From NCBI RefSeq assembly GCF_022760955.1, contig NZ_JAKTNU010000001.1, forward strand, positions 129,507 through 193,506: a stretch of 64,000 bases of DNA. Reading direction: 5' to 3'. Each line of letters starts with the position of its first letter. Position 1 is the first letter of the stretch. The stretch is from Thermus neutrinimicus (GTDB lineage Bacteria > Deinococcota > Deinococci > Deinococcales > Thermaceae). Of the stretch, positions 40,491-43,240 are shown in pieces. Position numbers and translations under genes: made by a program. The notes beneath the pieces were generated by a model. The model was not told where the DNA came from and did no database searches. It saw only the letters and a program-made list of their open reading frames with translations.

Positions 40491-40514
40491 GCCGGGTTGC
40501 AGTATCATGTTCCC

Positions 40515-40541
40515 ATGAGCCCGGCCAGGCTAGTCCCCTAA
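40515..40541 (+). CDS. Putative leuS leader peptide (MSPARLVP)
   Basis: Eight codons, ATG at 40515 to TAA at 40539-40541. The Leu codon is CTA at 40530-40532, an uncommon Leu codon in this GC-rich window. The ATG is six bases after the -10 element, so translation would be leaderless. A ribosome halted at CTA would cover segment 1 of the attenuator but leave segment 2a free; one at the stop codon would cover 2a. Confidence 0.6.
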
Positions 40542-40562
40542 GGCGGGAAGGGGCCTGGCCGT

Positions 40563-40590
40563 CCCTTCCCCTTGGGGGAAGGGTTTTTTT
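40563..40590 (+). terminator. Attenuator terminator upstream of leuS
   Basis: Nine-base stem CCCTTCCCC (40563-40571) with GGGGAAGGG (40575-40583), then seven T (40584-40590), only 13 bases before the leuS ATG. Its position inside the leader, rather than after a gene, marks it as regulatory. Confidence 0.85.
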
Positions 40591-40603
40591 GAGGGAGGAG
40601 CGC

Positions 40604-43217
<2,614 letters not shown>

Positions 43218-43240
<23 letters not shown>

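Follow-up and report, generated by a model that had tools for sequence, protein, structure and literature searches.

In the window (the whole 64,000-nucleotide stretch of Thermus neutrinimicus DNA that was analysed), the gene for leucyl-tRNA synthetase, leuS, occupies positions 40604–43240 of the forward strand (TIGR00396, 1075 bits). It is preceded on the same strand by a -10 element, TATCAT (40503–40508), and, after a spacing of 6 nt, by a short leader-peptide frame at 40515–40541, which reads ATG AGC CCG GCC AGG CTA GTC CCC TAA and would encode MSPARLVP. No good -35 element was found before the leader in this genome, and likewise none in Thermus. Leaderless genes are common in Deinococcota, where they account for about 39% of genes and are marked by TAnnnT boxes (PMC3160421). 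Since the -10 box ends 6 nt before the ATG, the A of that codon (40515) is the predicted transcription start, and the leader RNA would have no 5′ UTR. The leucine codon of the frame, CTA (40530–40532), is the putative regulatory codon; a tRNA-Leu(UAG) gene is present in the genome, alongside the CAA, UAA, CAG and GAG tRNA-Leu genes.

The leader would form a switch of about 76 nt, in which four segments can pair in alternative ways. Segment 1 (40522–40531) and segment 2b (40552–40561) are joined in the minimum free-energy fold by 10 pairs, one of them G-U. Segment 2a (GGGAAGGG, 40545–40552), the 5′ arm of the putative antiterminator, begins 15 nt downstream of the C of CTA and can form 8 perfect pairs with 40563–40570 of segment 3. 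Segment 3 (40563–40571) is common to antiterminator and terminator; it can form 9 perfect pairs with segment 4 (40575–40583), the 3′ arm of an intrinsic terminator with a U7 tract (40584–40590). Between this tract and the leuS ATG lie 13 nt, which contain the leuS Shine-Dalgarno region, GAGGGAGGAG (40591–40600). An eight-codon leaderless frame with a single CTA overlapping segment 1, a four-segment RNA with these three alternative pairings, and a 3:4 terminator with seven T residues 13 bases from the leuS ATG had all been put forward in a preliminary description of this DNA, and direct reading bears them out.

Conservation of the leader in Thermus and beyond

The comparison within the genus covered 27 Thermus genomes, with LeuS proteins that are 91–100% identical. 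The leader is present before leuS in all 27, each time with a TAnnnT box and, at a spacing of 6 nt, the start codon, followed by the CTA, a stop codon, an antiterminator and a terminator; the box is found at this spacing in most other leaders as well. While the peptide varies, the CTA, the stop codon and the two-codon spacing between them are constant. Two loci (L023, L025) have a divergent leader, GTG CGC GCG TCC CTA CGT CCC TAG, without the 1:2b pairing, and retain the CTA two codons before the stop together with the antiterminator and the terminator. T17 and A18 of the CTA are invariant in the Thermus alignment; in 1:2b, A18 is unpaired and T17 forms at most a G-U pair. The preliminary description had made its reading depend on conservation of the leader frame and of the competing stems, and the frame, CTA, stop logic, antiterminator and terminator are kept in 27/27 genomes, so that the reading withstood this check. 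It had also looked to a leader alignment for a conserved Leu codon and for covariation: the codon is conserved, whereas no pair (0) shows two-sided change within Thermus, where the stems are too conserved. Over 111 genomes, the pattern GCCAGGCTANNCCCCT has only four matches, in four genomes, besides the leuS leaders, and none of the four has a stop codon after CTA-NNN-CCC.

At L014 and L021 the upstream sequence differs, yet the unit from the -10 box to leuS is retained. The terminator thus sits after the promoter and the leader and is kept with both even where the sequence further upstream differs, which argues against the view that the locus consists only of an intergenic terminator and a constitutive leuS promoter, with a decorative leader. 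Furthermore, only 11–16 nt separate the U-run from the leuS ATG in Thermus, so that there is no room for a promoter after the terminator. This view draws some support from Meiothermus-like genomes, in which a TACAAT-like box between the terminator and leuS may be an unattenuated second promoter, and we judge it to be extremely unlikely.

Outside Thermus, the genus labels used here (Meiothermus-like, Marinithermus/Oceanithermus-like) were assigned from LeuS identity. In the sister genus (g5) the leader is MSTARLNP (peptides are given up to the stop codon), and a compensatory change from A-U to C-G is seen between segments 1 and 2b (GCCCGGC/GCCGGGC; locus L031). The Meiothermus-like genera (g2–g4; LeuS 73–76%) have leaders such as MQWFIHLELP, with CTA GAA CTA CCT TAG; in leaders with two CTA codons, the in-register first one never changes, and the position of the second shows CTA, CTG, TTA, CAG or CCA. 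Leaders of the Marinithermus/Oceanithermus-like family (f4) are MIWAGLART and MTRTGLPPA, and those of more distant families include MIRSGLLSLGALLG, MKIKHTQRLLLAEGPGH and MFLQVSNLFLLGGPRP. Across families the peptide, the stop position and the stem sequences change, and the in-frame CTA stays. Judging from these sequences, the leuS leader is not confined to Thermus, as its CTA frame and geometry continue in other families.

A leader detector was positive in 67 of 99 leuS upstream regions of relatives and in 0 of 80 leuS upstream regions of other phyla (outgroup control). Because of the shared ancestry of the lineages, the counts given here are not made up of independent cases. Some f5 and f4 genomes have no recognisable leuS leader, which is either lost or undetected. 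At the f5 loci L074, L077, L081, L098, L109 and L112, the distant leaders often contain CGACTA or CTA-CTA and, after it, GGnGGGCC in frame; the antiterminator arm is here part of the reading frame, which ends only beyond it, a stop-codon logic unlike that of Thermus. Such an arm within the frame is seen in some of the distant families. At L037, L040, L042 and other Meiothermus-like loci, about 70–100 nt lie between the attenuator and leuS, and the TACAAT-like box in this interval is conserved, which suggests a second leuS promoter that would bypass the attenuator.

The CTA codon and the placement of the stems

An unbiased set of 39 leaders was picked by -10 spacing (6–7 nt), short frame and terminator, with CTA not required. 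CTA is present in 38 of them and accounts for 57 of their 80 Leu codons; 57 copies of the triplet are in frame, and each of the other two frames has 2. For comparison, CTA makes up about 5% of the Leu codons (20/369) in six window genes. Thermus leaders have one copy and those of other families one to three, and the usual run of regulatory codons is absent. According to PMC1183508, CUA is by theory the most suitable one in E. coli, and a single regulatory codon predicts modest sensitivity.

The conserved CTA could also be part of an RNA or DNA signal, bound by a protein or a small molecule, with the frame being incidental. GGCCAGGCTA is nearly invariant in Thermus, as such a signal would be; across families, however, the flanking bases change and only the in-frame CTA is kept. 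The near absence of CTA from the other two frames, the retention of the start codon and of the -10 spacing, and the lack of an Rfam match likewise count against a signal of this kind, which we consider very unlikely. At the leuS leader no Rfam family reached its gathering score and none was credible below it; the low-score matches were set aside as chance.

A further reading is nascent-peptide arrest, in which the ribosome would be stalled by the leader peptide that it is making, with leucine or some other ligand as the trigger. The attenuation model also has the peptide translated, and R-L is conserved in most Thermus, but the peptides across families have just one Leu in common, and it is the codon rather than the residue that is conserved. 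A leader of 7–8 residues is also very short for arrest in the exit tunnel. Arrest of the TnaC/Erm type was rejected on the absence of a conserved peptide, and we give scarcely any credence to this reading.

The attenuation model can be examined in the spacing of codon and stems. A ribosome with a codon in its A site reaches about 12–13 nt past the first base of that codon. Counted from the first base of CTA, the antiterminator begins after 12–16 nt in Thermus, in g5, in f4 and, for the first CTA, in the Meiothermus-like genera; the spacing stays within this range throughout Thermaceae and the sister family despite differing stop, loop and stem sequences. The stop lies 1–7 nt before 2a in Thermaceae and the sister family, except that in two leaders it falls 13 nt beyond the first base of 2a. 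Given the position of its leading edge, a ribosome stalled at CTA would just free 2a, and one at the stop would cover it. The spacings support the earlier proposal that the positions of the stop and Leu codons fit ribosome masking of the trp type.

Stem placement was compared with shuffles that hold the terminator, the CTA positions and the composition fixed. None of 400 shuffled versions of this leader matched its 2a:3 stem 12–16 nt after CTA, and an equally strong stem at the place set by CTA was rare in shuffles (p at most 0.04) for 16 of 18 leaders; close relatives are among the 18, which do not amount to as many separate tests. For the f2 leader L078 and the f5 leader L091 the geometry fit was not significant. 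A simple terminator finder wrongly chose long imperfect stems, and a stricter finder was used for the results. The fold of the leader has z = -2.72, with 3 of 200 shuffles folding equally well.

With the RNA exposed from 40544 onwards (stalled ribosome), the structure predicted at 65 °C is the antiterminator (-10.8); with the RNA exposed from 40553 (ribosome at the stop), it is the terminator (-9.6), and for the complete RNA it is 1:2b plus the terminator (-25.4). At 37 °C, a partial transcript ending at segment 3 is predicted to form the antiterminator (-19.4). For the stalled RNA at full length, the terminator is slightly favoured over the antiterminator (-21.2 vs -19.7), so that co-transcriptional folding order or high temperature would be needed.

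Proposed attenuation of leuS

We put at about 90% the probability that the leader is a ribosome-mediated transcription attenuator of leuS that senses charged tRNA-Leu(UAG). It combines a short frame, predicted to be translated, that holds a codon for the relevant amino acid; an antiterminator (2a:3) and an intrinsic terminator (3:4) that are mutually exclusive; and a codon position from which a stalled ribosome would expose the antiterminator arm that a ribosome at the stop would mask. With transcription predicted to start at 40515, the first base of the leader ATG, the nascent RNA would be leaderless and would have to take up a ribosome at its very 5′ end. When tRNA-Leu(UAG) is charged, the ribosome would pass CTA, reach the stop and cover 2a; 3:4 would then form, and transcription would terminate before leuS. 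When LeuRS or leucine is short, charged tRNA-Leu(UAG) would become scarce and the ribosome would wait with CTA in its A site, covering segment 1 and the RNA beyond it up to about 40544 and leaving 2a free to pair with segment 3 from 40545. Formation of 2a:3 would block the terminator, and leuS would be transcribed. Without a ribosome, termination would be the default, since 1:2b would form first and hold 2a.

If this is true, the leader would be a very compact attenuator: it would span about 76 nt, lack both a 5′ UTR and a ribosome-binding site, and rely on one regulatory codon. It bears on whether ribosomes can load on a leaderless 5′ end quickly enough to decide termination some 70 nt further on, and on whether a single rare CUA codon suffices, a matter that selective-charging theory quantifies (PMC1183508).

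Known attenuators and other synthetase genes

The proposed mechanism is of the trp/leu/his attenuator type, which is already known. In leuL of the leu operon of Salmonella and E. coli, stalling at Leu codons likewise selects the antiterminator over the terminator, and CUA is regulatory. Several Leu codons (three CUA) and a ribosome-binding site are found in leuL, which controls biosynthesis, whereas the leuS leader is leaderless, has one CTA in 8 codons and controls a synthetase; the pheST leader of gamma-proteobacteria has several Phe codons and is SD-led. Replacing CUA by CUG in leuL lowered the sensitivity (Carter et al. 1986, cited by PMC1183508). The preliminary description had taken control of leuS by one uncommon Leu codon, with no T-box, to be potentially new, but a leader-peptide attenuator at leuS has a precedent: leuS attenuators were predicted earlier in two genomes, those of Streptomyces avermitilis and S. 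coelicolor (Seliverstov et al. 2005, PMC1262725). They also have a leader peptide, an antiterminator and a terminator before leuS, but they belong to an unrelated phylum and are known by prediction only. The source also mentions pheST, which is likewise an aminoacyl-tRNA synthetase under classical attenuation (PMC1262725), albeit for a different amino acid.

No paper on leuS regulation in Thermus was found in the literature searched, in which the leaderless, one-codon, phylum-wide form appears to be undescribed; the genus Deinococcus does not appear among its established carriers. We lean, with some reserve, towards an ancient, phylum-wide class of minimal leaderless attenuators in Deinococcota, in which the ribosome would load on the emerging RNA 5′ end and one rare codon would be sensed, with leuS (CUA) as the archetype and metS (internal AUG) as the second member.

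The preliminary description had excluded a T-box at leuS, and this stands: there is no Rfam family match, and a T-box identity was rejected because no RF00230 covariance match exists at the leader, whereas ileS of the Thermus genome G008 does match. Among the ileS loci L114, L117 and L119, the gathering score of RF00230 was passed in L117 only; L114 and L119 show the motif but score below it. Given the T-box upstream of Thermus ileS, leuS is regulated differently for reasons other than a lack of T-boxes in the genus. The ileS T-box similarly responds to tRNA charging, likewise at the gene for a branched-chain synthetase of Thermus, but it binds the tRNA directly and involves no translation. 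In a 2008 survey, T-boxes were reported in one of three Deinococcus/Thermus genomes, that of D. radiodurans (PMC2494555). The leuS leader suggests that Deinococcota solved the feedback control of leuS without a T-box.

No leader of the leuS kind was found at valS, thrS, proS, serS, hisS, trpS/tyrS or pheS of two Thermus genomes. At metS, most Thermus genomes have a leaderless leader, MKGMPxx, with an ATG or GTG start 6–7 nt after TAnnnT and a Met codon inside the frame. Next come a hairpin and an intrinsic terminator, directly before metS (L115 at about 570–640; L274–L277, L279–L289, L291–L293 and L120); from its sequence, this leader is likely a second synthetase attenuator. A leaderless leader, MSGRWFFG, was seen upstream of pheS at the Meiothermus-like locus L143 (about 1126). 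Upstream of ilvB, L269 and L270 have a candidate classical leader, MRFGLVLSLGLVLIVGPAGGRV, and then a terminator, with three CTA among the Leu codons in L269. Finally, L149 and L150 hold a leader, MLAFEKKLGRRGVG, with two Lys codons and a terminator, upstream of the homocitrate synthase gene (hcs). It matches the lysine attenuator of Thermus thermophilus, reportedly described by Tsubouchi et al. in 2005, which shares leader-peptide attenuation and the genus with the leuS leader and differs from it in serving a biosynthetic gene through two Lys codons.
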